Positions 1 through 59,618 of a stretch of 61,950 nucleotides of DNA are shown in pieces. Source of the stretch: a virus; IMG/VR virus record IMGVR_UViG_3300033145_000307, positions 1 through 61,950 of that record; one strand, written 5' to 3'. The notes under the pieces were generated by a model that was given only the letters and a program-made list of their open reading frames with translations, was not told the DNA's origin and ran no database searches. The position numbers and the translations under genes were made by a program. Within the stretch, counting starts at the first letter, position 1, and each line of letters begins with the position of its first letter.

Positions 1-114
1 AACATTAGAATCGTTTTCGGATTGTACCAACACATACGCTTGCGCTGGCTGATCTTTCTTGAAGTAAAATCCGGTTAAAATATTATCATATACATCCCCT
101 GAAAGATTTGAGAT
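1..114. repeat. Terminal direct repeat, left copy
   Basis: These 114 bases are identical to 61837-61950. A gene reads in the same frame through both copies, so the window is a circular or circularly permuted molecule cut open at this point. The repeat length looks more like an assembly overlap than a biological terminal redundancy, but the sequence cannot separate the two. Confidence 0.95.
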
Positions 115-951
115 TGTGCCATCCCACTCTCCACCACCGGCGGCACCATCATAGGAAATCATCCCAAATATGTACTGAAAATCTTGCTTCTCGGTCAGGG
201 TAACAATTAAGGTGTCTACAAGGGTTTCCCGAACGCTGTTTGAATAAATAAAGGCGTATAGAGTTCCATAAGTGCCAACCGATTCAGTGCGTCTAACCGT
301 AACATAATAAGCAGTGTTTATGGTCAGGCCGATAGACGTATCTTCTGTATCGGCGGCACCATTAGTTTCCCTTAATATTAAAGTCTCGCTTACATATCGT
401 ACCGATAAATGATCTAAGTCGTTGTCTGCTAATCCGAACAATCCATGCCCGTTTGCAGGATCGTCATTGGAGATTGCCCACAAACCGCAGATTCCATTGG
501 TTGACACAGTGGCCTTGAACTCAAATTGATGCTCAAAATCGCCGTCAAAATTAGCTGCCCCCTCGTCTTTGTGAACATACACATCCTCATCGGTATCCAG
601 GTCAGAAACCGTAATCGTGTGCGCCGTTATCGAAACCCTGTCCCCCCCAATATCAACCTCAGTAAAATCGGTGTAATCATAATCGGAATAAAACGGAACA
701 GTATTAATCTTGGAAGTTCCGGCAACCCCAATGAGAGACTTGTCCGTGTACCGCATGTTCTCAATATCGGCAAAGGCGTTTTCGTCAAGCAAGAGTGGGT
801 CGTCATTCGGCTGCCATGATCCAGTAAAAGGCATCTCATATCTGAGAAGATCAGGCCTTCCCCCTGCTTGGTATTGTTGCCCCCAAACAGGCACAATACA
901 GGCACACACCAGAAAGAGCGTTAAGAGTATTGATAATAATTTATGTTTCAT
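1..951 (-). CDS. Exported structural protein, N-terminal part (gene spans the circular junction)
   Basis: The gene starts with ATG at 951 and runs off the left edge in frame; it continues from 61836 to its stop at 59629, giving 1052 aa in all. The N-terminus is a Sec-type signal: Lys at 2 and 4, a hydrophobic core to about residue 22, then Gly-Gln. The next stretch (about residues 45-75) has the pattern of podovirus tail accessory or stabilisation proteins, in which an Asp-rich segment is followed by 'ENMRYTDKSLIG'. Beta-rich sequence follows. It lies between the GroES-like gene and the ejection cassette, so a head-tail or tail-hub role is inferred. A signal peptide on such a protein is unusual. 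The export signal is clear; the exact virion role is not. Confidence 0.8.
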   Translation of the reverse strand, partial: MKHKLLSILLTLFLVCACIVPVWGQQYQAGGRPDLLRYEMPFTGSWQPNDDPLLLDENAFADIENMRYTDKSLIGVAGTSKINTVPFYSDYDYTDFTEVDIGGDRVSITAHTITVSDLDTDEDVYVHKDEGAANFDGDFEHQFEFKATVSTNGICGLWAISNDDPANGHGLFGLADNDLDHLSVRYVSETLILRETNGAADTEDTSIGLTINTAYYVTVRRTESVGTYGTLYAFIYSNSVRETLVDTLIVTLTEKQDFQYIFGMISYDGAAGGGEWDGTISNLSGDVYDNILTGFYFKKDQPAQAYVLVQSENDSNV

Positions 952-962
952 TCTTCGCCTTA

Positions 963-1202
963 TTAGGGTGTCACGGTACACAAAATATCGTCTTCCAGAA
1001 CCACCATGTATTCTTTGCCGTTAAATGTGATTACTGTAGCTTCTGGTTCAGGGACAAACACCAAGGTTCCCACAGAACAATGCGCCACATCAGGTCCAAT
1101 CTTGACAACCTTCCCCTTCCTATACCCCTGTATTCTTTGGCTTTGAAGTTCTGGCGGATTGATTGCCAGCAATACTCTTTGTCCCATTAAGGTAACATTC
1201 AT
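963..1202 (-). CDS. GroES/Cpn10-like co-chaperonin
   Basis: This 79-aa protein has the Cpn10 core: 'RVLLAINPP' near the N-terminus, then 'GKVVKIGPDV', 'VGTLVFVPE', and the C-terminal 'NGKEYMVVLEDDILCTV', matching the family pattern of strand, G-x-V-x-x-x-G-x-D, and [E/D]-x-D-I-L. It is shorter than host GroES (about 95 aa). The mobile-loop region between residues 15 and 30 is short and lacks the usual GGI-hydrophobic GroEL-binding tripeptide; 'RIQGYRK' may stand in for it. It overlaps the upstream gene stop and sits among tail genes. Phage co-chaperonins (T4 Gp31, RB49 CocO) work with host GroEL to fold capsid protein. Family call is good; a GroEL partner is inferred. Confidence 0.75.
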   Translation of the reverse strand: MNVTLMGQRVLLAINPPELQSQRIQGYRKGKVVKIGPDVAHCSVGTLVFVPEPEATVITFNGKEYMVVLEDDILCTVTP

Positions 1203-1918
1203 TATTCTACCTCAACAGGGGCTTCAGACTCACCACGAGCCCTATCAAGTTCCTGTTGGTATATCGCCATGTATATTTTATACAAATCCATCCTCGTATC
1301 CTTCGCCCATCCCTGCGCCACAATATAATAAACCAGGGCCTTGTCATACTGTGCCGGAACAAGCACGTCGCCATTATAGGCAACGGTTGCTGGTCGATCT
1401 ATCACGTATATGTCAACATCATTACCCGCTGCTGTGGCATCGGGAGAAGGGTACACAATTATGTCATTCTCCCACATTGTCCAATATACGGGCTCTCCCT
1501 CTGCATCAGGGTCTTGAGAAGAAGCGTATCCCAGACTTTCAAAAAAACCTGCCATGCTTCCTTCTGTCAGGAATTTAACATCATCATAAAGGACATATTT
1601 AACCACAATGAAGGGGTCTGCAAGGGGATAGTGCGTCTGACTTTCAACCAATGTTTCAGCCTCAACATCCTCAAGGCAATGCGACCTTGAAACAACGTCA
1701 AGAGTGCCGTCATTACACCATTGGAGCATTTCTGTGTCAGACCAGATACTTTGCTGCGTACCGCCATAAGTTGTCGGGTCGTGCAGATACCTTCTCGCCT
1801 GGTCTACTATGACGCTGGCATCGGTGCTTGAAGTAGTTTGATTGCCAGCAAAAGCAATGCCAATCCCTATGCCGATACTTAGACAGATTGCGAGCATGAA
1901 TATTATTAGTCGTTTCAT
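1202..1918 (-). CDS. Exported tail-module protein, 238 aa
   Basis: I place the start at the ATG at 1918 because it follows AAGGAA with good spacing and begins a textbook Sec signal ('MKRLIIFMLAICLSIGIGIG' then AFA|GN, cleavage near residue 25). The mature part has an Asp/Thr-rich N-terminus with 'DQARRYLHDPTTYGG', resembling the helical start of podovirus head-tail adaptor proteins, then beta-rich sequence and a C-terminal helix. It sits between a small 113-aa protein and the GroES-like gene. No enzyme motif is visible. A tail-adaptor-like domain behind a signal peptide would be odd; function unknown. Confidence 0.75.
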   Translation of the reverse strand: MKRLIIFMLAICLSIGIGIGIAFAGNQTTSSTDASVIVDQARRYLHDPTTYGGTQQSIWSDTEMLQWCNDGTLDVVSRSHCLEDVEAETLVESQTHYPLADPFIVVKYVLYDDVKFLTEGSMAGFFESLGYASSQDPDAEGEPVYWTMWENDIIVYPSPDATAAGNDVDIYVIDRPATVAYNGDVLVPAQYDKALVYYIVAQGWAKDTRMDLYKIYMAIYQQELDRARGESEAPVEVE

Positions 1919-1928
1919 GTTGGTTCCT

Positions 1929-2270
1929 TTATCTTGGCTTCCACGGCATTGATACAGCCGTTCTGTACTTAACAACGATCTCTACATCTCCAGCACACGT
2001 CACATATACACATAGTCCCGTTGAACATTTGTCTGGACTTTCTGCGGTATAGCCACTAAGTCCTTTATAATCAGCCTCATAAGAAGCGTTTGGCACAATC
2101 ACATCGCCAGAATTATCAACTCCATCGTACACATTAAAGGACGGGTCGTTGACTGCATCGGTTCGCAACAAAATGCGATACAGATAACATTCTCCGGTAT
2201 AAATCAGAATCTTCTTATTGCTTGGTGCTGATTCTGAGATACGATAAGTTACTACATAGGTATCAGGCAT
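1929..2270 (-). CDS. Small structural-module protein, 113 aa
   Basis: The start at 2270 follows GGAGGG at ideal spacing. There is no signal peptide. The sequence is beta-rich, with Tyr-Val repeats and a CxxxxC pair ('CSTGLC') near residue 85. The start overlaps the end of the upstream coiled-coil gene, so the two are translationally coupled. Proteins of this size in podovirus tail regions are often minor virion proteins; I do not recognise the family. Confidence 0.65.
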   Translation of the reverse strand: MPDTYVVTYRISESAPSNKKILIYTGECYLYRILLRTDAVNDPSFNVYDGVDNSGDVIVPNASYEADYKGLSGYTAESPDKCSTGLCVYVTCAGDVEIVVKYRTAVSMPWKPR

Positions 2271-2761
2271 TTAATAGCCCTCCAAAGGTCTACACAATAG
2301 ATGTATCCAAGATAACCCCACGCTGAGATAGCCACAGCAATAGCAAGTGCGAGTTCTCTGCATTTTTTTGTTTTGAGAAGCGCGGCATGTTCAAGTCGTA
2401 ATTGTGCATAGTCTTTCTTTGCCGTCGTCAATTTGTTTTTGAGCGTTGCCTTGGAAATGTTGAGCTCGGCAATAATCTCCTTGCTATGCTCAAAGACCTC
2501 AATATCTTCCTCAAACTGTTTTGATTCGTTGGCATAACTTTTGGCAATAGCAAACACTTCTCTTGCAATGTCTATGTTGTCAATAACCCTGTCATCCTTC
2601 ATGGTAAGCTGTTTTGAGTGCCATTCTGCTATCCTGCCATAGAATTCTTCAGCCGCTTTTTTTATCTGGGGCGGTGTCACATCAAAGGGCCTACGCTCAA
2701 CCAATAGCGGAAGAGATTTGTGCCTATCCTCAAAGAATTGAATCGTGTTTTTATTTAACAT
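2252..2761 (-). CDS. Coiled-coil protein with a C-terminal membrane segment, 169 aa
   Basis: Residues about 30-130 are charged and helical with a heptad-like pattern (IAELNISKATLKNKLTTAKK). Residues about 135-155 are a hydrophobic segment (ALAIAVAISAWGYLGYIY). There is no cleavable signal. The layout, a coiled coil followed by a membrane anchor, could suit an envelope-associated assembly protein. A spanin would carry its anchor at the N-terminus, so I do not call one. Its start overlaps the end of the 67-aa gene. Confidence 0.65.
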   Translation of the reverse strand: MLNKNTIQFFEDRHKSLPLLVERRPFDVTPPQIKKAAEEFYGRIAEWHSKQLTMKDDRVIDNIDIAREVFAIAKSYANESKQFEEDIEVFEHSKEIIAELNISKATLKNKLTTAKKDYAQLRLEHAALLKTKKCRELALAIAVAISAWGYLGYIYCVDLWRAIKCLIPM

Positions 2762-2958
2762 CCCGAAACTCCTATCAATAACAACCTGTTTGCTTGTTTA
2801 GGTATTGCCCCAGCATAGAGCTTGTTGCTATATAGCCATGATATATGCGCCCTGTCCTGTGAGGAAGAAATAGCCCCATCGGGAATCGGGCCAACTCGCT
2901 TTCCCTTTCTGCCCTTTCTGATCGATCTGCGTCTTTCTTCACTATCTCCAAAAGCCAT
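2755..2958 (-). CDS. Small basic phage protein, 67 aa
   Basis: It has a strong AAGGAG before the ATG at 2958. It is very basic at the N-terminus (RRRSIRKGRKGKR), followed by 'VGPIPDG' and a hydrophobic C-terminus. Short proteins with this layout occur beside tail-fibre genes in other phages, without known function. It follows the 598-aa exported protein directly. Confidence 0.6.
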   Translation of the reverse strand: MAFGDSEERRRSIRKGRKGKRVGPIPDGAISSSQDRAHISWLYSNKLYAGAIPKQANRLLLIGVSGC

Positions 2959-2968
2959 GATTTACTCC

Positions 2969-4765
2969 TTAATCTACTGCGCCCAATTCTCCATAAGTTG
3001 TAGTCCCAGCAGCATCAGACAAATCGGATTCAGTAATAATAGTCCCAGCATCATTTGATATTCTATATTCGGATGCTGTAGTCTCGTTCTTGTTTCTCAA
3101 GTCCATATAGTGAAGCATCATGGCATCAGCGATTGAAGGTTCTGCCAATGGTGCGCCTGCCGATAATTCTGTCAGCGTATCAGTATAAAGCACGTCCACG
3201 ACCTCGGCATTGATTTGATCTACATCAATTCTTGCATCGTCATTTAAAGTTCCCCCAAACCCACCTGACACGTTATCAACCTTCTCCGTGTTTCCATTAA
3301 TCCCAATTGTTCCTCCATCATCACAAGAAACATCAATTGTTACTTTGCCTGTACCTTGAACCGTGAACTTGCTACCGGAAGCCATCGTCTTAACTTTAAT
3401 GCCACCGCTCCACTCTCTAAGCCCTACAGTTGCAGCAACGTCATTAAAATCAATTTCTGGCGGGGAGCCGCCCGAACCAGCAGCAAAACAGTTATTAAAA
3501 ATATACGTTTCTGCTGCCGAGATAGTTATAGTTCCAGTGCAACCAGTGCTATAAAGATTTGACTTTCCTAAAGTTGCTGTTCCTATAGTACACTCATGAA
3601 AATGGATTTCTCCTGATCCGGCAGTTCCAATTCCTGAAATATGGGCCTCAGAAATATGAGCATTTTCAAACGATTGCCCACCAAGCGCTAAAGTATATTC
3701 AAAGCCCTCAAATGTAAAGTTGGCACAACTGGCATCCATAGTCAGTGATGAGCCATTTACAACATGAAACTTGTCAATATTCAGATTTGCCGAAAGGGTC
3801 TTGGCCGCAGCCCATGTACTTACCGGATTCGTGGATACTCCGTCTATTCCCGAAACAGTATTGGTGTTGCTTGCATTTGTATTTATCCAAATCGCACCAA
3901 ACGCGTAATCCCCCGTGCCTTGTGAAAACGACACAAAGATTTGATCAATATATAATGTTGCAGTGGATAGTGTAAAAGCTCCATCGGTGAATCTAATTCT
4001 TACCTTACCTAAATTAGCTCCAGTTCCAACCATTGTTGTCATTAAAGTGAATGAATTGACTTCATTAGTTGTACTTACCTTGCCTGCAATAGTTCCTATT
4101 TGCACCCATCCAGGAGCAACCCAATCATATCCGTGAATTTCAAGATCGTCATTGTTTCCGGTTAAAGCACCTGTAACAACTACAGAAGCGGGAGTTCCGC
4201 CACCAATTAAAAACTCATAATATAAATCCATCTCGGCAGTATCGTCCGTGTGGGTATGTTTTGTCCCATTTAAAGCAACGGTATCGGTATAGGTATTGGC
4301 CGATTGTGTGCCGGTGGTTAGAGTGTAGCTTGATGCTGGCCTGTTAACCGCCGCGCCTACATTGGCAATGTTAGAAAGTTGTGCTTGTGTAGAAGGGGCT
4401 GAGTCGTCAACGTACCCCACACCATTAAATGTATTTCTAAGGTTTTCGATGGATTCATCCGTTGTCCCTGGAATATAGCGTTCAGGGTCGGATAGCGTAG
4501 CTCCACCATCAACAAGATAGACATATTCCTTGGCATCAACAGCGGCACTAAAATCATACTTGTACCATCCAGTCGCCAGTTCTGTCATAGCTCCATCGTC
4601 AATATCAAGAGAGCCGTCCGCTACATCGGTGATATCAACAGTCGGGCTGAGTCCTGTCTTTGCCGCCCCAGCTTCCGAGAAATACGTCTTTATCATCACG
4701 GCGTTTGCGGCTGTAGTAAAAACCAACATGGCTAAACATATAAATGAAATGGCTTTTCTCATCAT
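2969..4765 (-). CDS. Exported fibre-like protein, 598 aa
   Basis: Residues 1-22 form a Sec signal (MMRKAISFICLAMLVFTTAANA). The mature protein is Thr/Gly/Asn-rich and beta-strand-rich throughout. It opens with a region like phage fibre N-terminal domains (YFSEAGAAKTGLSPTVDITD, WYKYDF), has a jelly-roll-like middle (about 130-285) and a beta-solenoid-like stretch (about 320-500). The C-terminus carries a widespread phage fibre motif, 'MLHYMDLRNK...NDAGTIITE...LSDAAGTTTYGE'. I infer a tail fibre or receptor-binding protein. The signal peptide is unexpected for a protein built into a virion in the cytoplasm. Confidence 0.8.
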   Translation of the reverse strand: MMRKAISFICLAMLVFTTAANAVMIKTYFSEAGAAKTGLSPTVDITDVADGSLDIDDGAMTELATGWYKYDFSAAVDAKEYVYLVDGGATLSDPERYIPGTTDESIENLRNTFNGVGYVDDSAPSTQAQLSNIANVGAAVNRPASSYTLTTGTQSANTYTDTVALNGTKHTHTDDTAEMDLYYEFLIGGGTPASVVVTGALTGNNDDLEIHGYDWVAPGWVQIGTIAGKVSTTNEVNSFTLMTTMVGTGANLGKVRIRFTDGAFTLSTATLYIDQIFVSFSQGTGDYAFGAIWINTNASNTNTVSGIDGVSTNPVSTWAAAKTLSANLNIDKFHVVNGSSLTMDASCANFTFEGFEYTLALGGQSFENAHISEAHISGIGTAGSGEIHFHECTIGTATLGKSNLYSTGCTGTITISAAETYIFNNCFAAGSGGSPPEIDFNDVAATVGLREWSGGIKVKTMASGSKFTVQGTGKVTIDVSCDDGGTIGINGNTEKVDNVSGGFGGTLNDDARIDVDQINAEVVDVLYTDTLTELSAGAPLAEPSIADAMMLHYMDLRNKNETTASEYRISNDAGTIITESDLSDAAGTTTYGELGAVD

Positions 4766-5454
4766 AATTCAACGGCCTCCGCCGATTCTACTTTAAGCTC
4801 TCCGGTATAAACAATCGCAACCTGTTCTTGAGGGGTTCCCGACATTGCATAGTTTCCGTCCGCATCCAAGGATATGAATATCGGATCGCCTGGAATCGTA
4901 ACTGGCTTCGTGCCGATTACATTTCCCTCTTCATCGTAAACATCTTCTTCCCGATATGTTGTGGCTGTCACGGCCTGGATTCCGGTTATCCCGGATGTCT
5001 CAGGGTCAATCGTGCTGACTAAAGCCCTTTCCGGCAGAATCGTGACATTTCCCAATGGAACTATCTGACCTGTTGGCTCTGTAACCAATTCAACATACTT
5101 ACAGACAACATATTCAAGAAGCGTGGTCGCAATCGGCTTTACTTTGCCGTCTACCGAATGCTTCACATCCCGCTCATGCCTCAGTTCCGCCTCGCCCCTG
5201 AAAGTCCGCTGGTTAATCATATCAACCTCGCCGGTGGGATAATATGTATAAGCGTCTGTTCGCTTTGACACCACAATTCCGTTCGGGTCTCGTGTTTCCT
5301 CCGTCCAGAAGATCGGGCGGTTGGAGCCGTCCCTGATTATCGTAATCTCGCTGGTTTCCGTTGGGGATGATTTCACGCCTTCCAGGAGTCCTTCGTCCCA
5401 CAGGATCTTTGCGATTTCTTCAGGGGTTTGTTTTTCCGTGTCGATTATTGGCAT
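4762..5454 (-). CDS. Structural-module protein, 230 aa
   Basis: The start is placed at the ATG at 5454, which follows GGGGGGAG and overlaps the upstream stop (TAATG), indicating coupled translation. There is no signal peptide. It starts helical (TPEEIAKILWDEGLLEGV), then becomes beta-rich with 'TRDPNGIVVSKRTDAYTY', as in baseplate or fibre-associated proteins. It lies between two exported fibre-like proteins, so a fibre assembly or attachment role is inferred. Family not recognised. Confidence 0.7.
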   Translation of the reverse strand: MPIIDTEKQTPEEIAKILWDEGLLEGVKSSPTETSEITIIRDGSNRPIFWTEETRDPNGIVVSKRTDAYTYYPTGEVDMINQRTFRGEAELRHERDVKHSVDGKVKPIATTLLEYVVCKYVELVTEPTGQIVPLGNVTILPERALVSTIDPETSGITGIQAVTATTYREEDVYDEEGNVIGTKPVTIPGDPIFISLDADGNYAMSGTPQEQVAIVYTGELKVESAEAVEL

Positions 5455-6791
5455 TATACTCCCCCCCTGCAAAGACGGCAATAGTGTTTTGTTGTGCTTT
5501 TTGTTGTATTAACAACGCTCCCTGTCTCACTAAAACTTATTACTTTTGCAAGTCCAGTTGATGATTTTCTCGTTGTACTTACCCAATGATAAGCACTTGG
5601 AGTAGACGGAAAGGCTGTCTGATCAACAAGAGGTTGACCAACCCCTTCATCCATTAAGCTTGCCAGTTCCGTCCTATTCGCCACCCGCCAATCCGTATAT
5701 CCGCCAAGACTATTAGCGTTCGCCTGATCCCTAAGATCAAAGATCAGGTCGTCAACCGTAACCACGCTAACCGTATCCCCTGCCGCCTCGTCCACGATTG
5801 TAGTCTCGCTGATCGTGAGCTTTGCCGCCGTGGTGATGCTGACGGTTCCGGTTATGTTATTGTCCGTGCTGCCGGATACGGTGATCTTTCTTCCCACGCA
5901 ACAGGCTCCGGTGTCGAACTCTGCGGCTGCGGATAGGATTTCTCCGGCGGTTACTTCTTTGAGTGAAAGGTTGTCAACATAAGATTCACCTGAGGGACTA
6001 GTGGTTATAAATCTTATACGCTCATTTTCGCCTTCAGCAGTAAAATAATAAACTTTTGAAACATAACTTGCATTAGTAAGATTTTCTTCTAATGTTTCCT
6101 TTGTAAGTCCATCACCAGCGTCTCTTATTACAATTTGCCAAGTGCCTGATATAACTTTAAAGTCTAAAGTTAGTTTATACGTTTTCCCCGTCCCAATAGT
6201 TAAAGCGTCAACGGCTGAAAGCATACCATTATATATAGCGCCAGATACAACCCTAAAATGATGAGTTCCAACATTGGGATCAGTATTAACAGAGGTTACA
6301 GTGCCACCAGAAGGATCAGCAGCCCATCCTGTTGTGGCATCTGTCTCGTTGCTATTAGGATCAGAAGCCGCATTTGCGCTGGTATGAAGTTCGCTTCCCA
6401 AAACAGTCGCAAACGAAATATCCGTCTTGTTCTCAAGCGTCCACTGTTCCCAAAACAACTTCCCGTCAGCCGCAGGGCCGATGTCAGCAGTCGGAACATA
6501 CCGCGCCCACATAATGCCGGTTCGATTGTCCCAGACAGCTTCGTTGGACAGGGCGTGGGTCTTGCCGTTGATTACGATATTAGTCGTGCCGGAATGATTG
6601 CCAGCCGTCAGGACGGTGTAATTCCTCGGCATCCCTTTTTCCAGATCGCCGTCGTCGCCGGATGCGTAGCTTGTGGTCTGGCCGGTTTCTAATAGTCGAG
6701 AAGCCACACGATGCTGTGATTCAGCAAATCCCGTAGAAGCTATCAGAGAAATGCACAGTATCGCTAACCAAGTTTTTAAAGCGGTTCTCAT
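5454..6791 (-). CDS. Exported DUF1566 (Lcl-type) protein with an inserted binding-module-like domain, 445 aa
   Basis: Residues 1-23 are a Sec signal ending GFA|ES. The first DUF1566 half shows near residue 90 as 'WDNRTGIMWARY'. The second half is at about 345-445, with 'YTDWRVANRTELASLMD', 'YHWVSTT', 'AKVISFSE' and a terminal 'CRLCRGG'. Between them, about residues 120-290, lies a beta-sandwich-like segment similar to carbohydrate-binding modules (Trp-Gln-Ile-Val, 'RIRFITTSPSGESYVDNLSL'). DUF1566 folds are surface and adhesion modules, common in Gram-negative anaerobes. I infer a receptor- or glycan-binding virion or surface protein. The insertion splitting the domain is unusual. Confidence 0.8.
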   Translation of the reverse strand: MRTALKTWLAILCISLIASTGFAESQHRVASRLLETGQTTSYASGDDGDLEKGMPRNYTVLTAGNHSGTTNIVINGKTHALSNEAVWDNRTGIMWARYVPTADIGPAADGKLFWEQWTLENKTDISFATVLGSELHTSANAASDPNSNETDATTGWAADPSGGTVTSVNTDPNVGTHHFRVVSGAIYNGMLSAVDALTIGTGKTYKLTLDFKVISGTWQIVIRDAGDGLTKETLEENLTNASYVSKVYYFTAEGENERIRFITTSPSGESYVDNLSLKEVTAGEILSAAAEFDTGACCVGRKITVSGSTDNNITGTVSITTAAKLTISETTIVDEAAGDTVSVVTVDDLIFDLRDQANANSLGGYTDWRVANRTELASLMDEGVGQPLVDQTAFPSTPSAYHWVSTTRKSSTGLAKVISFSETGSVVNTTKSTTKHYCRLCRGGV

Positions 6792-6836
6792 TAAAATTAT
6801 TTCCCCTTCGTTGCTGGTTTCGTTAGCACCATTTTC

Positions 6837-7295
6837 CTACCTCGATTGAATCAGATATAAAATAATCGTCCCACTCTTAGTGTCACCGGCGTTTGCTACA
6901 ACCGGAGTCAAGGCCTTTCCCACTAACGACATATACCCCCCGTCTGTCGTAAACAGGCTCCGATAGGTTCTTGCGTATGTTAGCGATGTGTCGGTTCCGT
7001 TTTGCAGATTCGCCCCAAATCCATCCAAAAGATCAAGGCTGTCAGAATCTATAAGCGTCACATCGTGGGCATCAGACGGATATGTTGTAGCGACATTGAA
7101 CTCAACGGCATATGGTATCCCAGATACCGTATGGCTCCCCACTCCCGATACATCCCCAGAAGCATCAGATATCCAGGTCCATGTCACTTTTAAAATTCCA
7201 TAGTCTCCATCCGAAGTAACGGTACAAATTCCAGCGGCGTAGGCATTAAAAGACAGTCCAAAAAGTAGCAACACAATAAGGATTAATCGTTTCAT
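6837..7295 (-). CDS. Small exported beta-rich protein, 152 aa
   Basis: A clear Sec signal (MKRLILIVLLLFGLSFNAYA|AG) follows an AGGAGAATAG ribosome site. The mature 130 aa are beta-rich with Asp/Ser/Gly turns and no catalytic motif. It is first in the run of exported proteins after the adaptor gene. Similar secreted beta-sandwich proteins lie at 17217-17960 and in the fibre genes. Function unknown; virion decoration or cell-surface location are both possible. Confidence 0.75.
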   Translation of the reverse strand: MKRLILIVLLLFGLSFNAYAAGICTVTSDGDYGILKVTWTWISDASGDVSGVGSHTVSGIPYAVEFNVATTYPSDAHDVTLIDSDSLDLLDGFGANLQNGTDTSLTYARTYRSLFTTDGGYMSLVGKALTPVVANAGDTKSGTIILYLIQSR

Positions 7296-7304
7296 TCTAT
7301 TCTC

Positions 7305-8144
7305 CTAAGAAATTACATAGTTCATTTCGTCCGGCAAATTAACAGGCTCGGACGATGCTAAAAGACTCGTTTCTATCTGTGAATTAACCAACCCCCAAAT
7401 ATTCTTCTGAAAGGCCAAAGACTGTTGTTTGTCGGCAAATCCCTTGGCATCAGGTCTTGGCAACCTCATAAGCTGAATTACTCCAAACGCAACCAGCCCC
7501 TCATGATATTCTGCCGGAATATCGCCTATTGCATCGGGCGCACCAACATAATCTACAATAATGTCGTAAGTATAATCGGGGTCATCAACAACAATGTTTT
7601 TCTTTCTCGGATACCACCTTGTGTCATTGGATTGTGTAGACTCGGATAGAGCAATTTTAGTGATTTCAGGCATTGTATCCGGCTCCAAGTATGCCTTGCC
7701 TCCCGATGTGTACGCAGCGTTGCCCGTTGACCCGTTCAGCGTGTAATTATCATCATCTACCACAGTGATTTTGAAGGTTCCGTTTGCATCCGTATTTCCA
7801 CCAATGTCGTGATGAACCACAATGTTGTCAGTAGAAAATCCGTGATCTACGGACTGAATGTTTATCGGGCCAGCGTTTGTCGCATCCGTTACATCGTTGG
7901 CATTGTCCTCCAGGTCCCACACTTTCAAGACAGTTTGACAGTCGGAAGGCCATGAGAATATATGAGTAGTTGATGTAAGAGATATTCGTTTAGTGAAAAA
8001 AGAGGAATCAATCTCTTTTATTTTGAGCCCCAAAACGGTTACACCCCGAAGGATAACAACACCAATCTGCGTATCGCTTACAGTTCTTGTTTTCGGCTCT
8101 CTGATAGCTCGGCGTATTGCGATCACAATTTCTGCGGTGGTCAT
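7305..8144 (-). CDS. Head-to-tail adaptor-like protein with an FCCH-like insertion, 279 aa
   Basis: Residues 1-85 have the helical layout of podovirus and siphovirus adaptor proteins (TTAEIVIAIRRAIREP..., SDTQIGVVILRGV). About residues 95-150 form an FCCH-like module with 'VDHGFSTDNIVVHHDIGG', 'NGTFKITVVDDDNYTL' and 'YTSGG'. The C-terminal part contains 'YHEGLVAFGVIQLMRLPRPDAKGFADKQ', typical of adaptor C-terminal helices. It lies downstream of capsid and decoration genes, the usual place for adaptors. The start follows GAGGAT and the preceding stop by a few bases. Confidence 0.7.
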   Translation of the reverse strand: MTTAEIVIAIRRAIREPKTRTVSDTQIGVVILRGVTVLGLKIKEIDSSFFTKRISLTSTTHIFSWPSDCQTVLKVWDLEDNANDVTDATNAGPINIQSVDHGFSTDNIVVHHDIGGNTDANGTFKITVVDDDNYTLNGSTGNAAYTSGGKAYLEPDTMPEITKIALSESTQSNDTRWYPRKKNIVVDDPDYTYDIIVDYVGAPDAIGDIPAEYHEGLVAFGVIQLMRLPRPDAKGFADKQQSLAFQKNIWGLVNSQIETSLLASSEPVNLPDEMNYVIS

Positions 8145-9788: not shown

Positions 9789-10760
9789 TTATGAAGGTTC
9801 GCTCAGGGTCGTATGTCGCACATGAGCTTTCCTGTGCATACAAACAAGCTGACCAATCCAACGGGTATTGGCTACCCACAGATCGGGTTGCTCTTTGTCA
9901 TACTCCCACTTTGGCACCGTGAACTTGTAATCCTTGTGGGTCTTCATCTTCAGATAACGAAGATTCAGCCCGTCACAATACCCAGAGGTTTGTTTGTCAT
10001 CAGATACAACCGGAGCCCCACCGAAAAGAACGTTGTCAAATCCGGCATTTACCAAATCAACGTCAGAATATCTCGCCTGTACTTGAAGAGTTCTCTCAAA
10101 TCCATCCTTCAGGGTATCAGTCGTAATATAAAGATTCGGTTTGTCAGATTTATTCTGTCCGATATTCGGGGATCTTCGCATTGCCTGAAGCACCTTAAAC
10201 GAAATTGCCTCGGATGTGGTAGTCACATTAGCCGCCCACTCAGACATGTCATCTTCAGCGATTGAGCCGTATGCCGTTGCAGTTACAGTGCTAAACAGAT
10301 TGCCAAGCCCAAGGATTGAATTGCTGTCAGCAGCGGAAGAATAAATATCAGTTCCCATCTTGTCTCTTGCGGTCTTCTGAATGTTCTTCACCTTGCTTTG
10401 TGCAATATCAACCTTGGCTGCATCCCCTTCAACCTGAACATGATCGTTAAGATCAAGTGCGTTTGAAGAATAAATCCCTGCCCATCTGAATCGTGCAGCA
10501 TTTAGGATGGTTTTCTTGCTCTGTGCAACTTTGGTTGTGTTTCCATATGAACCACTATTTGAGTTTGCATACTCAAGTATAGCTTTGATCTTTTCTCCGC
10601 CATCGACGATTTCATTAGGCTGAACCATGTTGGCTTCCATGCCACCCTTACCCATCAATTTCCAAATCAGTACATTATCTTTGAAATAGATGTCTTCAGG
10701 GATAGCATTTTCGTAATAATCGTCTGTTATGGCTTGTGCTTCACTAAGCGTTAAGGCCAT
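9789..10760 (-). CDS. Major capsid protein (HK97-fold type)
   Basis: This 323-aa protein sits between scaffold and decoration-like genes. Features typical of HK97-type capsid proteins include an early helical arm (LTLSEAQAITDDYYEN), a long central domain with 'KTARDKMGTDIYS', and the late motif 'NAGFDNVLFGGAPVVSDD', where a hydrophobic strand precedes G-x-P-V-V. No protease domain is fused to it, and the N-terminus gives no clear sign of a delta domain. Expression is probably high: it has its own ribosome site and a stabilising hairpin after the stop. Confidence 0.85.
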   Translation of the reverse strand: MALTLSEAQAITDDYYENAIPEDIYFKDNVLIWKLMGKGGMEANMVQPNEIVDGGEKIKAILEYANSNSGSYGNTTKVAQSKKTILNAARFRWAGIYSSNALDLNDHVQVEGDAAKVDIAQSKVKNIQKTARDKMGTDIYSSAADSNSILGLGNLFSTVTATAYGSIAEDDMSEWAANVTTTSEAISFKVLQAMRRSPNIGQNKSDKPNLYITTDTLKDGFERTLQVQARYSDVDLVNAGFDNVLFGGAPVVSDDKQTSGYCDGLNLRYLKMKTHKDYKFTVPKWEYDKEQPDLWVANTRWIGQLVCMHRKAHVRHTTLSEPS

Positions 10761-10793: not shown

Positions 10794-11579
10794 CTATTCC
10801 GCTCTTAATCTCTCAAGGGCCGCAAGGCCACTTTGTTTTGTTTCAAGATCTGTTAATGGTTTATTTGATTTATTTACTTGGCGTATCGCTCCCCCTGGTT
10901 TTGTCAAAACCTTTTCAGAGGCGGCTACACCTTTCTCGGCCTTTGCAAGATCGGCCTTTCCTTTCTCATATGCCTGTGTCGCTCTGAGTTCGTAATAAGC
11001 GCTGAAGTCGTCGTGCAGCGGATTTTGTCGTTTAATTCCTTCCAACGCCCCACTTTCCTGAAGTGCCATAAAATCGGGATTGTCCTTGAAGAATTGCTCT
11101 CGGACAGTTGCCCCATCACGTTCGGAAAGTGTTTTTTGAAACTCCTTTGTTGCCAAGCCCAAGGTCTCATCTCTGGTTTGCTGAACTGCGTTTGCTAACC
11201 TTGCATCATTGGCTTCTTGCAACATTCGGAGTCCTTCGGCCATACCAAGGGTTCCATCTTCGATTTCCCGATAGATGTTTTCAGCCGGAGTCGCATTGGC
11301 TGATTTAATTGCATCAATGGTAGTTTGCATCCCAGCCATTTGTTCAAGCATGGCTTCTTTGTCCTGGCGCAATGTGCCAACCTCATTGGTATGCTGACCA
11401 TGAACTTTTTTCAGGTTCGCCAATTCGGTCTCCATCTTTGCAACTTTCTCTTGTGCGCCTTTCAACTCTTCCGCTGACACAGTATTCTCGGCTGCTTTGG
11501 ATTCTTCGCTTTTCCCCTCGTCTACTTTGGGGGGCATTGATCCTGCCGGAATTGTCTCTTGCTTTTTTTCTTCTGCCAT
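10794..11579 (-). CDS. Scaffolding protein
   Basis: I start it at the ATG at 11579, which follows GAGGAGG. It is 261 aa, highly charged and almost entirely helical, rich in Ala/Glu/Lys. A coiled coil spans about residues 40-95 (ELKGAQEKVAKMETELANLK), and the C-terminus is basic and helical (TDLETKQSGLAALERLRAE), as in P22/phi29-type scaffolds that bind the coat by a C-terminal helix. It lies directly upstream of the capsid gene. A terminator-like hairpin separates it from the portal block, so capsid and scaffold may have their own transcription start. Confidence 0.8.
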   Translation of the reverse strand: MAEEKKQETIPAGSMPPKVDEGKSEESKAAENTVSAEELKGAQEKVAKMETELANLKKVHGQHTNEVGTLRQDKEAMLEQMAGMQTTIDAIKSANATPAENIYREIEDGTLGMAEGLRMLQEANDARLANAVQQTRDETLGLATKEFQKTLSERDGATVREQFFKDNPDFMALQESGALEGIKRQNPLHDDFSAYYELRATQAYEKGKADLAKAEKGVAASEKVLTKPGGAIRQVNKSNKPLTDLETKQSGLAALERLRAE

Positions 11580-11665
11580 TTTGTGCCTCCTCAGGGCCGC
11601 CAACAGATTGTCCGATTAAGGGTCTGTATCTGTGGTTATCCCTCGTCCTAAGTGTTAAAATAAAA

Positions 11666-12195: not shown

Positions 12196-14181
12196 CTATT
12201 CCTCCTTCCTCTCAACATTTTGTGGTGGTTTTCCTCCCTGTGCTTCTCTCGGATTACCAGCAGACACCTTCTGCGTTCCAGCCCCCTCCTGCGGTCTATT
12301 CCCCGGCCCTCCTTGTGGCTCTAATAAATACTGTCTCAATGCTAAAGCGTCTTCTTCCTGCATGCCTGCTGCGATAAGGATTTGCAGGGCCTGGTCCAAT
12401 TGCCCCTCTCCGGCCCTTTCAATAATTTGTTTCCACCCAGGGAATCCAGTATGCTCAAGGAGAGCTTGTCTATCTATCGCCCCTAATTGATAATATTTCT
12501 CAGCTTGTGCCGCCACCTGAAGGCTTGTCTTTGGCATCGTACTGCCGGACTCGACCACATAATTAAATTTTCGACCTACAAGATTGACTCCAATTATGCC
12601 CTTCGTTTCGCCCTCAACCTCTAAAGTCTCGTACTTTATGCCAAAGTTTTGAGTAAAGGATATATTGCATTTCCCCCTGAACTCTATCAGATTATCAACC
12701 ATCTCAATCTTATGCTGTATCAGGACAGCGTTTCGCTCTTGTAAAGCCACGATTGCAGAAGCCGCAACAACACCCTTTGGCCCAACCCCCCTGTCAGCAT
12801 CTTCAATCTGATAAACTCGATCAAAGAAGTTAATAAACATATCAAGAATAGTGAAAAAGTTAGCCGGAAGATTCGGAACAGTCTCAAATCTAATAAATTG
12901 GGAGGCTTGAACATTGGTCGGCATTAAAACAAGATTTGGCTTGTTGTTTATCATCTCCCGTGTAATACCACAATTCTTTGGAATAATAAGCGGCGGGAAC
13001 ATTGCTCTTGCAGCCCAGGCTCCGACCTTGCTAATTAATTCATCAATTTTATAATTGAGATCCCCAACTTGCTCTGCTGCCGAAAATCCCCAAATATTTG
13101 TGGTGTCTTCATAACTGTTTACTTTTGTGAACGGGAAATGATCGTACAAGTAAGAATATTGAGTTGCTTCGGGTGGTAATTCGGGGTTAATGTTCGGATT
13201 GGGCTTGTCGTCTAAGACAATCGGTTGCTTGATATTTTTATCTTTTGTCTTGCTACCGCTTCCCGTGAGAGTAATTACCCTAATCCCCCCCGGATATTTC
13301 GGAACCTCTATTTCTTTAATAAGGATATCTCCGGTTTCTTCGTCCACCAGAGGTTCGCCTGTTTCTTCATCCAAAATTGGTTCGTCAACTTTCTCTGTTG
13401 AATAGTCCCGAATCCAAATCTCAATAACAAGCGTTCTGCCCTGTCTGATATCAAAAGATTTCTTCCCTGATTGCTCAACCTTGTTATACGTTCCATCATA
13501 CCTTGCCGCCCCTTCCCGTGAAGCCGAAGGAATTGGCTTTTTTTCTTCTCTTTCTTCGCCTAACAAACTATAAACATCGTCAGGTTCTACCCCTGAGACA
13601 TTAAACATTTTCTCAACGGCTTCCACCAATTCAGGATAGCCATGACAAATATACGGACAATCTAAAGAAATGTCTTCCCAATTTCCAGGTGCAGGGAAAA
13701 AGGCGTATGGGTCTACAATGGAAATGTCGCCCCTTTGCTTTTTGAAGTCATAATACGCCTTTTCAATGGTAATCCCATATTGTTCCATTGCAAGAACGCT
13801 GATGCCAAGTTTTTGTTTCTGGCTCGTGTCTTTCCACCATTTTCTATTCTTGGCGGTTAAGAGGTTCGCTGAACCATCATCGTCCCCATCAAGGTCAACT
13901 ACTTCGGCAATAGGATTACGTGCCGTGACGTTCGCCTTTGTGCGTTCTACGTTGGCAAAGAACAGGTTAATCGTAACCTTGCTTTGGTCCTTCTTGCTTT
14001 TGTCCTTTTGCCAATGATCGCCACGATACAGCTTATAGTTTTCCATCCATCGTTCAGGAAGCATCAGGCGGTCTCGTTCGTCACGGGCAAGATCGAAAAG
14101 ATTCCACATAAAAGGGCCTACGTCTTTATGCCCTTCAGGTGGGAGATTAACCAAGTTCCATTTATCGCTTATGTTAGGCAT
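12196..14181 (-). CDS. Portal protein
   Basis: This 661-aa protein has the order and size of P22/podovirus-type portals. It has an N-terminal helical domain (WNLFDLARDERDRLMLPERWMENYKLYRGDHW), the portal signature 'VTINLFFANVERTKANVTARNPIAEV', a clip/stem region with acidic 'EETGEPLVDEETGDI', and a core with 'INNKPNLVLMPTNVQ' and 'ASAIVALQERNAVLIQHKIEMVDNLI'. The C-terminus is Gln/Gly/Pro-rich. It forms the dodecameric DNA gate at one capsid vertex and docks TerL. Terminase and scaffold are in the same block. Confidence 0.9.
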   Translation of the reverse strand: MPNISDKWNLVNLPPEGHKDVGPFMWNLFDLARDERDRLMLPERWMENYKLYRGDHWQKDKSKKDQSKVTINLFFANVERTKANVTARNPIAEVVDLDGDDDGSANLLTAKNRKWWKDTSQKQKLGISVLAMEQYGITIEKAYYDFKKQRGDISIVDPYAFFPAPGNWEDISLDCPYICHGYPELVEAVEKMFNVSGVEPDDVYSLLGEEREEKKPIPSASREGAARYDGTYNKVEQSGKKSFDIRQGRTLVIEIWIRDYSTEKVDEPILDEETGEPLVDEETGDILIKEIEVPKYPGGIRVITLTGSGSKTKDKNIKQPIVLDDKPNPNINPELPPEATQYSYLYDHFPFTKVNSYEDTTNIWGFSAAEQVGDLNYKIDELISKVGAWAARAMFPPLIIPKNCGITREMINNKPNLVLMPTNVQASQFIRFETVPNLPANFFTILDMFINFFDRVYQIEDADRGVGPKGVVAASAIVALQERNAVLIQHKIEMVDNLIEFRGKCNISFTQNFGIKYETLEVEGETKGIIGVNLVGRKFNYVVESGSTMPKTSLQVAAQAEKYYQLGAIDRQALLEHTGFPGWKQIIERAGEGQLDQALQILIAAGMQEEDALALRQYLLEPQGGPGNRPQEGAGTQKVSAGNPREAQGGKPPQNVERKEE

Positions 14182-16119: not shown

Positions 16120-17242
16120 GTTTTCCCCCTCCTAACATTGCCAACCAAGTTATAGCAAGCAACCCATTGACAGCGTTCATTCTAAACATTGAATTTGTCG
16201 AACAACAAAGCACGATAACGATTAAAGCCGTAAACTGTATGGCGTTCTTTCTGGTAAACTTCCATACAAAATTCCCCAAATATCCACTTACAATTACAGC
16301 AAAGCCTACGCCCATCTCTATTAATCCATTTACAAATGTATTATGCAGTCGGGTCCAGGTTCCATAATGTCCGGGCAATAAATGGATATTTGCTTCAACT
16401 AATTTTCGACTGATTGCTTCCCAATGGCCCAAACCACACCCCCACTTCCAATGAGGCAGGTATATTTTAAAGGCGTTTTTCCATACAATCCATCTATCGC
16501 TGGCATGTGGGAAATCAATAAATAGCCAGAATAGCCCAAACAAGATAATAGAGGGGACAATGACCCAATAATGTCCTAACACACAAGCATAAAAGATTGC
16601 GCCTATTGTCGTAGCTAATACGCCATTAAAAGAGGATGTCATTGCCAATCCAAAGAAAACCATAGGAAGACAATACCAAAGCTTGATATCTTTGATAGTG
16701 ACATAAGCCCTTCCTCGAAATCGCAAAACACAAGAAGTCGGCAAAGAATATATTGTACGGTCCCTTAAAAATGCCGGAAAACACAAAGCAAACAACGCTG
16801 ACCCCTCATTGGGGTTAAACATCAATCCACACACGTCCCCTGAGAACAGAGATGGTATCTTAAAATATTGAATAAACGTAGCCATAAAATGAGCAAAGGC
16901 AATTACGCATATAACATCCATCAATACTTTTTCATTCCCAAAAGAATGTATAAAAAAGTACCATCCAAGCCCGAAAAGCACACATTTCAAAGTAGCTTGC
17001 GATTCAACTGTAACCACAGGAACAACATGCGAAACAACTGCTAACAACATAAACAGCGCTACCCATTTATTGATTCCCCAAAGAACTGCAAAAAACACAA
17101 TCAGGACCCCCACTTGAAATAAGCCAAGAACAAAATCGCGCCCTTTTCCCATTTCAAGTGGAAGCCTGGTAATAGCAACCATAAACAGCATAATCGCTAT
17201 CGCGGGTGCTATAAATTTACATTGTTGAGTTACAGGTTCCAT
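16079..17242 (-). CDS. O-antigen polymerase/ligase-like (Wzy/WaaL) membrane protein, 387 aa
   Basis: About ten hydrophobic segments span the protein. Near residue 300 is 'RLHNTFVNGLIEMGVGFAVIV', the pattern of the Wzy_C/WaaL family (H-N-x-[FY]-[LV]...E-x-G-hydrophobic), preceded by a periplasmic-loop-like stretch rich in Trp/Gly/His (WKWGCGLGHWEAISRKLV). Family members polymerise or ligate polysaccharide units on undecaprenyl carriers in the periplasm. Temperate phages carry Wzy-type inhibitors or replacement polymerases to change O-antigen; here it sits in the late block between TerL and the portal. It starts after AAGGGAAC and overlaps the upstream secreted-protein gene. Family fit is good; substrate unknown. 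Confidence 0.75.
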   Translation of the reverse strand: MEPVTQQCKFIAPAIAIMLFMVAITRLPLEMGKGRDFVLGLFQVGVLIVFFAVLWGINKWVALFMLLAVVSHVVPVVTVESQATLKCVLFGLGWYFFIHSFGNEKVLMDVICVIAFAHFMATFIQYFKIPSLFSGDVCGLMFNPNEGSALFALCFPAFLRDRTIYSLPTSCVLRFRGRAYVTIKDIKLWYCLPMVFFGLAMTSSFNGVLATTIGAIFYACVLGHYWVIVPSIILFGLFWLFIDFPHASDRWIVWKNAFKIYLPHWKWGCGLGHWEAISRKLVEANIHLLPGHYGTWTRLHNTFVNGLIEMGVGFAVIVSGYLGNFVWKFTRKNAIQFTALIVIVLCCSTNSMFRMNAVNGLLAITWLAMLGGGKHGKTVGLCNESCN

Positions 17243-17960
17243 GCGTTCCCTTTAACTTTAAATTAGCAGACTCATGGCTCGTAGCATTAAAAATATCTAC
17301 CGTTACCCACGTTCCTGCGATGCAAGCTGTTTCACCAGTTGCATTAAGTGTCAAAGTTAAAACTTCGTTGGATACGTCAGGGTTGCTGGCTGAACCCATC
17401 AATACTTCTGATTGTTCAATTGCTGTAGCATCAAATGCTACTCCGTCATTGTTGACCCATATTCTCCAGTCCAATGCCCCAGCAATCCCAACATCTGTGT
17501 CGGAAGAAACTAAGCAATAAATTGTCAAGCCACTTACATAAGTGCTTGGGAGCCTAAATGTAGCCTGGATTGCTCCGGTCTCACCACTATTATCCCACGT
17601 AATGCTCGGAATATTGTCATCATCACCAATATCGGGAGCGGTATTTTCGTCAATATCGTCACCACCATCAACTGCCCAACCAGCCATCGGGAGGTAGATC
17701 TCGCGGATTACGTCAGCGATTTCAGTTGCGCTGATAAGCCCGGATCCAAAGGCAGCTGCATCGAAATACGCTTTAATGCTCTGTTGAGTGGCTAACCCTT
17801 CGTCGTCGTCACTCCCCATAGCGTCTTCATCATAAATGTCATACGTTGCAAGCCCACCACCTACAGTAACAGCCTTGTCGGCTTCCGCCGCACCCATCAC
17901 AAAAGCCGGGGCCAAGGCCAGCATTAAAGCCAAAAACATCCCTAACAATCTTTTCTTCAT
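17217..17960 (-). CDS. Secreted beta-rich protein, 247 aa
   Basis: Sec signal, residues 1-23 (MKKRLLGMFLALMLALAPAF...VMGA). The mature part is acidic (DDDEG, DGGDDIDEN, DIGDDDN) then a beta-sandwich region: 'GAIQATFRLPSTYVSGLTIY', 'DWRIWVNNDGV', 'GTWVTVDIFNAT'. The ends resemble carbohydrate-binding or virion decoration folds. It lies between TerL and the Wzy-like gene and overlaps the latter by 26 bases, so both may be expressed together. Virion protein or periplasmic/surface protein are both possible. Confidence 0.75.
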   Translation of the reverse strand: MKKRLLGMFLALMLALAPAFVMGAAEADKAVTVGGGLATYDIYDEDAMGSDDDEGLATQQSIKAYFDAAAFGSGLISATEIADVIREIYLPMAGWAVDGGDDIDENTAPDIGDDDNIPSITWDNSGETGAIQATFRLPSTYVSGLTIYCLVSSDTDVGIAGALDWRIWVNNDGVAFDATAIEQSEVLMGSASNPDVSNEVLTLTLNATGETACIAGTWVTVDIFNATSHESANLKLKGTHGTCNSTM

Positions 17961-17990: not shown

Positions 17991-19553
17991 TTAATCTTCC
18001 AAATTAAAGGCTTGATCGCTCTCGCCTTGACCTGTTACGTTTAGCCAATCTATTTCGGCTTGTGATAATCCTTTTTTTGGTTCATCTAACAATACGGGAG
18101 CGGCGAATGTTAACGCCAGCGCATCCGCTAAATCAGGAGAAGCCAATCCCCTGCTTTTCATATCTTTTTTCTTTTCAAGCTGTAATCTACTTTTGCCGTC
18201 AAATCCGTATTCTACACCGATTAAGTCGCTTTTAAGTTCTTCTTCGTCTGGGATTGAACCACCAGCACCTAACCAATCTTTCATTAATTGCCACATTTCA
18301 GCCCGTAAATTCACAAATTCATTGGCTTTTGTAGCTCTTTCTCCGGCATTAACCTCATAAATAATATCAAACCCTAATTGTCTTAGTCGGTCACAAACAC
18401 CGGCACCAATCCCAACAGAATCCACAAATACTGTCTTGGGCTTCCACTCCTTTATCTGGCCTGCAATATGCCCGGAGAACTCCATTGTATCAATTTCACG
18501 GTATGTCAATATTTTATGGGTCTGTAACCCTTGCCGAACATAAATAACGCTCTGGTCGTCACCAAATCGTGCTACATCAACGCCCATAAGGACCGGAGCC
18601 CACCCCCAAACATCTCGTAACTGATCATATCGTTTAGTAACGGCACCATCTACAACGTCCTCACCAATAAACTGAGTTGTGGCAGCTTTCGGGAATTTCC
18701 CCAACACCCTGATTCGTACAAAGTCGCTGTCATCGCCATAATCATCAATCCACGCTTGAAGTTGTATTTGATTGGCTTTCTTGGCAGTTCGTGAATCAAT
18801 CGCTCTTCCTGACCATCTATGCCTAAATTTCCCCCAACATTCCTTGAATCGGCCTGTATTCCGTGTTGGATTACCGAAAACAACCCAAATTGCTCCAGGG
18901 GTTGTCATTGCACCCTCTGTGGTTTCCCAAATTATATCCGGGATGTCAGAGGCTTCATCAAAGATCATCAAGACGTGTTTTTCGTGAGTGCCGGCAAACG
19001 ATTCAGGACGATCCTTTGACCACGGAATTGCAGAAGCAAACCAGGTTTCTCGATCATCCTTCTTGTATAGTTTTGTAGCTGTCCATTCAAAAACAGCCTT
19101 GTTCTTTGCCAGCTTGTGCCACTTTGCAAGTTCACGCCAAGTTTTTGTCTCAAGTTGATTCTTGGTGTTGGCGGTTACAACTATCTGTGGATGTTCTCTT
19201 GTGGTGATAAACCAGTATATAATCCAAGCAATTAGAGTAGTTTTTCCAATGCCGTGGCCTGACCTTACAGCCTCCCGAATTGCCTCGTTTAAATGCCCTT
19301 CTTCTTGTCTTTTTGTGGCTTCTCCAAGTTCTTTTAATATTTCGGCCTGCCAAACATCCGGGCCTTCCTCGTCCCTTAGAATCCCCTCTCCCCAACAAAA
19401 GACATATTCAACAAACCCCAAAGGATCATGGAAGAACTTATCATATTCCTTTTCCGCCAAATACCCCTCAACCACCGCAGCATCCATCTTCGGCGCAAAC
19501 AGTTCCGCCATCTTGTCGATGTCCGGTAGGGCTATGTTGGGTTGTGGTGTCAT
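17991..19553 (-). CDS. terL: Terminase large subunit
   Basis: The 520-aa packaging motor has an N-terminal ATPase domain with Walker A 'SGHGIGKT' at residues 98-105 and Walker B 'LMIFDEA' at about 195-201. The C-terminal RNase H-like nuclease has acidic residues at D326 (VDVARFGDD), D378 (VFVDSVGIGAG) and D474/D477 (SPDLADA). It cuts and pumps phage DNA through the portal. The gene follows a small protein and the sigma factor without gaps. A large-terminase phylogeny could predict the packaging mode. Confidence 0.93.
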   Translation of the reverse strand: MTPQPNIALPDIDKMAELFAPKMDAAVVEGYLAEKEYDKFFHDPLGFVEYVFCWGEGILRDEEGPDVWQAEILKELGEATKRQEEGHLNEAIREAVRSGHGIGKTTLIAWIIYWFITTREHPQIVVTANTKNQLETKTWRELAKWHKLAKNKAVFEWTATKLYKKDDRETWFASAIPWSKDRPESFAGTHEKHVLMIFDEASDIPDIIWETTEGAMTTPGAIWVVFGNPTRNTGRFKECWGKFRHRWSGRAIDSRTAKKANQIQLQAWIDDYGDDSDFVRIRVLGKFPKAATTQFIGEDVVDGAVTKRYDQLRDVWGWAPVLMGVDVARFGDDQSVIYVRQGLQTHKILTYREIDTMEFSGHIAGQIKEWKPKTVFVDSVGIGAGVCDRLRQLGFDIIYEVNAGERATKANEFVNLRAEMWQLMKDWLGAGGSIPDEEELKSDLIGVEYGFDGKSRLQLEKKKDMKSRGLASPDLADALALTFAAPVLLDEPKKGLSQAEIDWLNVTGQGESDQAFNLED

Positions 19554-22763: not shown

Positions 22764-22857
22764 GTCTTCCTCCCTCTCTGTCTTGTCTTTCCCCATTTCA
22801 CTTCTCCAACAATTACCGCTGGTTAGTTGGGTGTTGCCACAGCACCGTAAGAATTCA

Positions 22858-22930: not shown

Positions 22931-22938
22931 CATCATTT

Positions 22939-57396: not shown

Positions 57397-57397
57397 A

Positions 57398-58165: not shown

Positions 58166-58180
58166 TAGAATATCTCCTTA

Positions 58181-59203: not shown

Positions 59204-59204
59204 T

Positions 59205-59618
59205 TTATTCGCTCCTCATTCCTTTAATTTCGGCTATATATTGTTGCATAAGCTGTCTGTCTCTTTTCGCTGTCTCCTGTTCCTGCCAGCCCTGAAGGCC
59301 GGATAGTGCTACGTTCGCAACACCAAGACCAGTAGCCCACGGAGCAAGTTGCTTGCCCTTCTCAAGTTGCTTTCTGCCAATATCCAAGGCCCCACGTTTT
59401 AAGCCAAGAGATCGCTTCCGAAGACCAAGCCCTCTTTCAGCCAAGCCCTGTTCCATTTCTCCGACTTGCCCTCTTACCTCTGCCGAAACTCTTGGAGTAA
59501 TGTAAGACCGCATAGCCCCTGATACGTCCATGTCAGCAGGACTTCTTCCTGTTGCTATGGCCTTCTGTTGCGCTGGCCTCCATACGTCAAGCATGAATCG
59601 TTTAAAGTGATCTGCCAT
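59205..59618 (-). CDS. Small ejection-type protein, 137 aa
   Basis: Helical and basic: 'FKRFMLDVWRPAQQKAIATG', a Gly/Leu-rich repeat 'GLAERGLGLRKRSLGLKRGA', and 'APWATGLGVANVALSGLQGW'. It starts the ejection cassette after the 1052-aa structural gene. Probably an internal virion protein; family not assigned. Confidence 0.6.
   Translation of the reverse strand: MADHFKRFMLDVWRPAQQKAIATGRSPADMDVSGAMRSYITPRVSAEVRGQVGEMEQGLAERGLGLRKRSLGLKRGALDIGRKQLEKGKQLAPWATGLGVANVALSGLQGWQEQETAKRDRQLMQQYIAEIKGMRSE

Follow-up and report, generated by a model that had tools for sequence, protein, structure and literature searches.

Signal peptides on the adaptor, hub and fibre-like proteins of a podovirus-type phage: a candidate Sec-exported tail

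The 61,950 nucleotides of IMG/VR virus record IMGVR_UViG_3300033145_000307 (positions 1 to 61,950, the whole stretch analysed, hereafter the window) are a podovirus-type genome with a 114-bp direct repeat at both termini, and the feature of concern here is a set of N-terminal Sec signal peptides on its distal tail proteins. On the minus strand the order is terminase large subunit (TerL), a 247-amino acid (aa) protein with a signal peptide, a polytopic membrane protein, small genes, portal, scaffold-like protein and capsid, and then two decoration-like proteins and proteins of 242 and 279 aa. The signal peptide block which follows comprises, in order, proteins of 152, 445, 230–239 (no signal peptide) and 598 aa, small genes (no signal peptide) and a 238-aa protein. 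After it come a 1052-aa protein whose gene spans the record ends, proteins of 137, 340, 255 and 1994 aa, a 1270-aa spike and a 243-aa DUF481 protein (Table 1). Podophage portal-tail systems share the order portal, scaffold, capsid, connector, hub, internal proteins, spike.

The initial annotation held that seven proteins (1052, 238, 598, 445, 152, 1270 and 247 aa) begin with signal peptides and that those of head and packaging lack them. Open reading frames (ORFs) for all seven are present. A home-made scorer, which takes in n-region charge, h-region and a signal peptidase I (SPase I) site matrix, confirms a signal peptide (SP) on each, and is negative for every head, packaging and internal virion protein of the window (TerL, portal, scaffold, capsid, decoration-like and 279-aa proteins included). 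Known E. coli SPs from the training set score 5.3–26.2 with it (leave-one-out). In a 49-kb E. coli region a score above 3.5 was reached by 7/7 exported proteins from outside the training set, 0/23 cytosolic proteins (maximum 1.7) and 1/10 polytopic membrane proteins. When the N-termini were shuffled 2000 times each, the real score was reached 0–22 times for five proteins, 71 times for the 247-aa and 118 times for the 238-aa protein. The features of Sec export and SPase I cleavage, a positive n-region, a hydrophobic core and small residues at −3 and −1, are present; after the h-region there is Ala, Gly or Ser at −1 (Ala in 35 of 47) and a small residue at −3. Identity across the SPs is 32%, against 44% in the first 30 mature residues, and SPase I-type sites are nonetheless retained. 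The 238-aa and 1052-aa proteins have the lowest scores of the seven, so that the case for their SPs depends on homologues, in which scores reach 27. As a list the seven proved incomplete, since the 243-aa DUF481 protein, a 208-aa protein, a 284-aa lipoprotein and a Tat-type 113-aa protein also bear export signals, and the 247-aa protein, though SP-bearing, is probably a separate phenomenon.

Table 1. Features of the window with their coordinates (SP, signal peptide; a slash marks the predicted cleavage site)
Feature	Position	Strand	Signal peptide	Score or other basis
1052-aa tail hub/nozzle-like protein, 5′ part	1..951	−	MKHKLLSILLTLFLVCACIVPVWG/QQYQ (cleavage site uncertain)	SP score 6.4
1052-aa hub gene, 3′ part	59629..61836	−		joined across record ends; homologues
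238-aa head-tail adaptor (second connector)	1202..1918	−	MKRLIIFMLAICLSIGIGIGIAFA/GNQ	SP score 4.3
598-aa tail-block protein	2969..4765	−	MMRKAISFICLAMLVFTTAANA/VMI	SP score 15.0; no Pfam or PHROG family matched
445-aa protein	5454..6791	−	MRTALKTWLAILCISLIASTGFA/ESQ	SP score 13.8; Lcl_C (DUF1566), E 1e-16, residues 354-442
152-aa protein	6837..7295	−	MKRLILIVLLLFGLSFNAYA/AGI	SP score 23.7
279-aa protein, immediately 5′ of SP block	7305..8144	−	none	SP score −11
Major capsid protein	9789..10760	−	none	phrog_9953, E 4e-21; SP scorer
Scaffold-like protein	10794..11582	−	none	SP scorer
Portal	12196..14181	−	none	weak phrog_332 match; SP scorer
113-aa protein between portal and TerL blocks	14452-14793	−	Tat-type, MSRRLFLKTLGIAGVGVMSLG	N-terminus
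387-aa polytopic membrane protein	16079-17242	−		no Pfam match
247-aa protein after TerL	17217..17960	−	ends PAFVMG/AAE	SP score 12.0
Terminase large subunit	17991..19553	−	none	phrog_5902/phrog_2; SP scorer
tRNA-Gln(TTG) and tRNA-Pro(TGG)	22857-23015	−		
208-aa protein	39166-39792	−	SP	
284-aa lipoprotein	40272-41126	−	LALAGC lipobox	
243-aa DUF481 protein, 3′ of spike	46853..47584	−	SP	DUF481, E 7.2e-13; SP score 7.9
1270-aa spike-like protein (beta-helix, DUF2341)	47595..51407	−	ends ASVASA/GTY	SP score 15.0; domain matches
Internal virion-type proteins (1994, 255, 340, 137 aa)	51412..59618	−	none	SP scorer; phrog_30335 for 1994-aa

The 238-aa protein starts at the ATG at 1918, within a 257-aa ORF opened by TTG. 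The structural family phrog_399 aligns to it from residue 33, directly past the SP (E 6.8e-13). An AlphaFold (AF2) model of the mature part, from a run with 36 sequences, has a pLDDT of 88.4 and a pTM of 0.83, and its top 21 Foldseek matches in the PDB (E 6.5e-10 to 6e-4) all come from portal-tail, neck or connector entries of phages. The best are podophage portal-tail adaptors, those of GP4 (8jov), KHP30 (7wmp), cyanophage A4 (9k09), Pa223 (9nwi), DEV, VP1, crAss001 (7qoi), SU10 (7z47) and N4 (9lc0); P22 gp4 and gp10 are counterparts by position. With a gene that sits between the head genes and the hub, as is the position of podophage adaptors, the 238-aa protein is on its predicted structure a podophage head-tail adaptor, and a core part of the neck therefore bears an SP. 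The fold of the mature part is thus like that of the podophage adaptors, whereas the N-terminal SP of the window adaptor and hub sets them apart (the same scorer finds an SP on 0/12 structural proteins of P22). SP-less adaptor homologues start precisely where the mature part of the 238-aa protein starts. The adaptor of locus L075, M-ASQQTSSTTAS, is the same protein without its SP as those of L066 (SP-AGSQQTSSTTAS) and L068 (SP-AGSQQTSSTLAS).

The 1052-aa gene runs from an ATG at 951 down to 1 and continues from 61836 down to 59629. Its product matched no database family, and a cultured relative was not found among 50,697 phage records. Its homologues directly follow adaptors in IMG/VR contigs, and its own gene position points to a hub. 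SP-less hub homologues start at an M(F)xGxW motif, the equivalent of MPFTGSW in the window protein; in SP-bearing hubs the motif comes after SP and linker. The frequent Gln at +1 in the latter raised the possibility of a Bacteroidota-type cleavage rule, which was dropped as only 1 of the 24 other SP genes in the same loci fits it.

The distribution of the SPs was followed in 42 non-redundant loci (some still close kin) that have both adaptor and hub. By script, 21 have SPs on both, 20 on neither, and there is one apparent mismatch (Fisher p = 8e-11). In the mismatch, L100, the hub bears an SP opened by TTG. With this corrected, the comparison with related phages, which the initial annotation had proposed as a check, gives a trait shared by 22 of the 42 loci (SP+ loci), lacking from both genes in 20 (SP− loci) and discordant in none. 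On the hub tree the SP label needs 7 changes, at least 3 of them forced on well-supported branches, and at all well-supported switches the adaptor goes the same way as the hub; the estimate from these sequences is at least three independent switches, with seven as the best value. The closest switch separates L093 (SP+) from L135 (SP−), where the hubs are 79% identical and the adaptors follow the hubs. Two fibre-like families switch too. A fibre with an LTGGTxGxLD domain has an SP in L073, L093 and L099 and none in L075 and L005, and a small protein with GKLIESQSGG has one in L093 and none in L075. In L038, where the capsid is 72% identical to that of the window, the layout is the same, with SPs on a pair of adaptors (232 and 312 aa), on a 638-aa protein and on a 1067-aa hub; there are also more distant relatives in which neither adaptor nor hub has an SP. 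The reality of a coordinated SP trait is, on these comparisons, very probable. The claim that the pattern is coordinated, not a matter of a single odd gene, is borne out, as SPs on adaptor and hub are all-or-none per genome and the trait extends to fibre-like genes. (Three loci with a similar capsid, L048, L050 and L055, have three tandem SP-less adaptor paralogues with a 306-aa protein before them.)

The SPs also have a boundary. Probably the SP-less 279-aa protein is the first connector; it has weak profile similarity to the adaptors (hhalign probability 26%, E 7e-4) and, if inserted SP genes are disregarded, is the window's counterpart of the gene upstream of the adaptor. In readable loci the gene immediately upstream of the adaptor has an SP in 0/16 SP+ and 0/19 SP− loci. 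Other SP genes of at least 100 aa number 24 of 222 in SP+ loci versus 2 of 212 in SP− loci, with 17/61 versus 1/63 downstream of the hub and 7/161 versus 1/149 upstream. The internal proteins 3′ of the L038 hub are SP-free, except that a Gly/Ala-rich stretch scores a low 5.6. Phages with the same capsid and other tail modules have no SPs on their tail genes, as in three contigs of metagenome-assembled genomes (MAGs; Cloacimonadota, Omnitrophota and Desulfobacterium). The placement of the boundary indicates that the split lies between the head plus first connector and the rest of the tail, and the SP-free upstream gene, taken with the SP-free tails of same-capsid phages, shows the trait to travel with the distal tail.

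The explanation preferred here, as the most economical, has the second adaptor ring, the hub, the fibres and the spikes (together the distal tail module) made with cleavable Sec SPs, passed across the inner membrane, trimmed by SPase I and folded or assembled in the periplasm. Heads, comprising capsid, scaffold, portal, first connector protein, internal proteins and DNA, would be built in the cytoplasm. On the opening of the inner membrane by a holin/endolysin step, the exported tail would dock on the DNA-filled head. Keeping the tail away from the portal until lysis would prevent early capping of unfilled heads, and the same separation would keep envelope-active spikes outside the cytoplasm. 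That heads and tails made apart can be joined is classical knowledge from extracts of lambda, T4 and P22. The M15 endolysin lacks an SP and is cytosolic, which is compatible with ordinary holin-type lysis. What the sequences themselves show is the SPs, their confinement to the distal tail, their joint gain and loss and what the adaptor is; translocation, cleavage, assembly in the periplasm and union with the heads at lysis are deduced from these. The probability put on the whole scheme (a Sec-exported tail, extracytoplasmic assembly and joining to filled heads at lysis) is about 0.5. That some tailed phages, as a group, make head and tail in two compartments and join them at lysis, and have gained and lost this trait several times as a unit, is put slightly short of even odds.

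Several points weigh against a Sec-exported tail. The SP calls rest on a home-made scorer whose rule includes the small residues at −1 and −3. The Fisher test ignores relatedness, and the well-supported branches give only 3 independent pairs, a number that does not reach significance (p 0.25). Adaptor and hub genes adjoin and could be swapped jointly. L073 is a possible partial case, with an SP-less adaptor and a hub SP only via an ATC start. (In L073 the hub SP apparently starts, from 9722, at this ATC after AGGAG, without ATG, GTG or TTG, and the sequence is identical in L074; the L073 fibre genes carry SPs although the adaptor is SP-less.) A signature of oxidative periplasmic folding was sought as cysteine enrichment and not found: SP+ proteins have neither enrichment nor an even-number bias, and a single Cys is usual in SP+ adaptors (even fraction 0.27). 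The cysteine result would be neutral if the host is anaerobic.

The main rival to export of the full tail is partial export with a second envelope role. The SPs would be real and leaky, with a cytoplasmic fraction building the virion and an exported fraction acting in the envelope, for example by receptor occupation or superinfection block. No new assembly route is needed for this, an SP-bearing DUF481 barrel adjoins the spike in the window, and there are known cases of exported phage proteins with a role in envelope modification or in blocking re-infection. T4 Spackle (gp61.3) binds the tail protein gp5 and goes to the periplasm, its 22-residue SP being cleaved (PMC7650644), and lambda Lom, whose gene lies among those for the tail, is a beta-barrel of the outer membrane with an SP (PMC12309495). 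The window DUF481 protein, likely an outer-membrane barrel itself, has a gene position similar to that of Lom, which modifies the host membrane and has no part in the virion. However, Spackle is a small tail-lysozyme inhibitor from a single gene and not a building block, whereas here adaptor, hub and fibre families switch together. Partial export predicts SPs on spikes alone, not the all-or-none occurrence over adaptor, hub and fibres that is observed; the adaptor ring and hub are without obvious envelope role, and virion subunits would keep an uncleaved SP. Partial export is rated unlikely, though the letters of the genomes read the same for it as for full export. Still less likely is that the adaptor, hub and fibre set is an exported non-virion complex, virions being built with other tail proteins. 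The SP is in each case merely added onto an otherwise complete protein, as such a use would allow, but these loci have no second, SP-less hub copy and the SP-bearing adaptor is in its normal place between head genes and hub. Of the three options in the initial annotation (reaching the virion after export, action at the host surface, membrane anchoring during assembly), the first is the best fit, since a second copy without an SP exists for neither adaptor nor hub.

Cytoplasmic membrane anchors are the least likely of those options, given the positive n-regions and SPase I-type sites. In the corresponding scheme the SPs tether tail subunits to the inner membrane and maturing heads dock there, later cleavage being optional. 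Heads that dock at the membrane are familiar, for example T4 proheads, and the hydrophobic cores are strong. However, positive n-regions mean an N-in topology, which puts the mature part on the periplasmic side, away from the heads, and contact with the head would still require an exposed cytoplasmic part; membrane-docked assembly is judged improbable, between partial export and a non-virion complex. That the SPs are an artefact, with true starts downstream and the hydrophobic stretch untranslated or a chance in-frame extension, is barely credible. The window hub does have an in-frame ATG (residue 40) at the start point of its SP-less homologues, but this lacks a ribosome-binding site and is missing in L038. 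Of 25 SP-bearing adaptors only 2, the window's not among them, have an internal start that a plausible ribosome-binding site precedes, and SP features are kept in diverged relatives. Internal translation starts were rejected as an explanation since they are not conserved.

All studied tailed phages, to our knowledge, assemble head and tail in the cytoplasm. Inoviruses (filamentous phages) are a familiar case of virion proteins with SPs, their coat proteins pIII and pVIII entering or crossing the inner membrane ahead of assembly. The window differs in its proteins and virion, which are unrelated: it is a tailed phage with dsDNA, a portal and a terminase, of which only the tail half is proposed to be exported, and in place of an inovirus genome and coat proteins there are family matches for terminase and major head protein. 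In the open-licence papers searched, SPs on adaptors or hubs of tailed phages were nowhere described. A Sec-exported tail module would, if true, be a new mode of virion assembly, the time of head-tail joining would become testable, and SPs would give a sequence marker for metagenomes. An SP on a phage protein, ordinarily taken to denote a surface factor or a superinfection factor, can belong to a core part of the virion.

The window has the look of a diderm-bacterium phage, in contrast to the host label, Methanomicrobiales, of the record of Caudoviricetes sp. vir555, the TerL of which is 60.8% identical to that of the window. Host assignment from the three capsid-sharing MAG contigs was rejected because their tails differ. 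Among 395 genomes of the phylum of the Desulfobacterium MAG there were only remote SP-less hub homologues, and among 125 of the Cloacimonadota phylum hub homologues were absent.

The 247-aa protein has an SP-bearing homologue in L039 (58% over 71 aa). L048 and L052, which group as close kin with the SP− loci L050 and L055, encode an SP-bearing 908-aa protein upstream of the portal. Because of this occurrence among close kin of SP− loci, the position probably holds an accessory protein, and the 247-aa protein is probably one of this kind, exported and separate from the tail switch. The C-terminus of the 445-aa protein, Lcl_C/DUF1566, is a C-type-lectin-like domain. The 208-aa protein and the 284-aa lipoprotein are encoded outside the structural block. 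The neighbours of the 113-aa Tat-type protein are Sec-type or unexported. By eye the 387-aa membrane protein is like an O-antigen ligase/polymerase (HNTFVNGLIEMG), and the two tRNA genes lie side by side.

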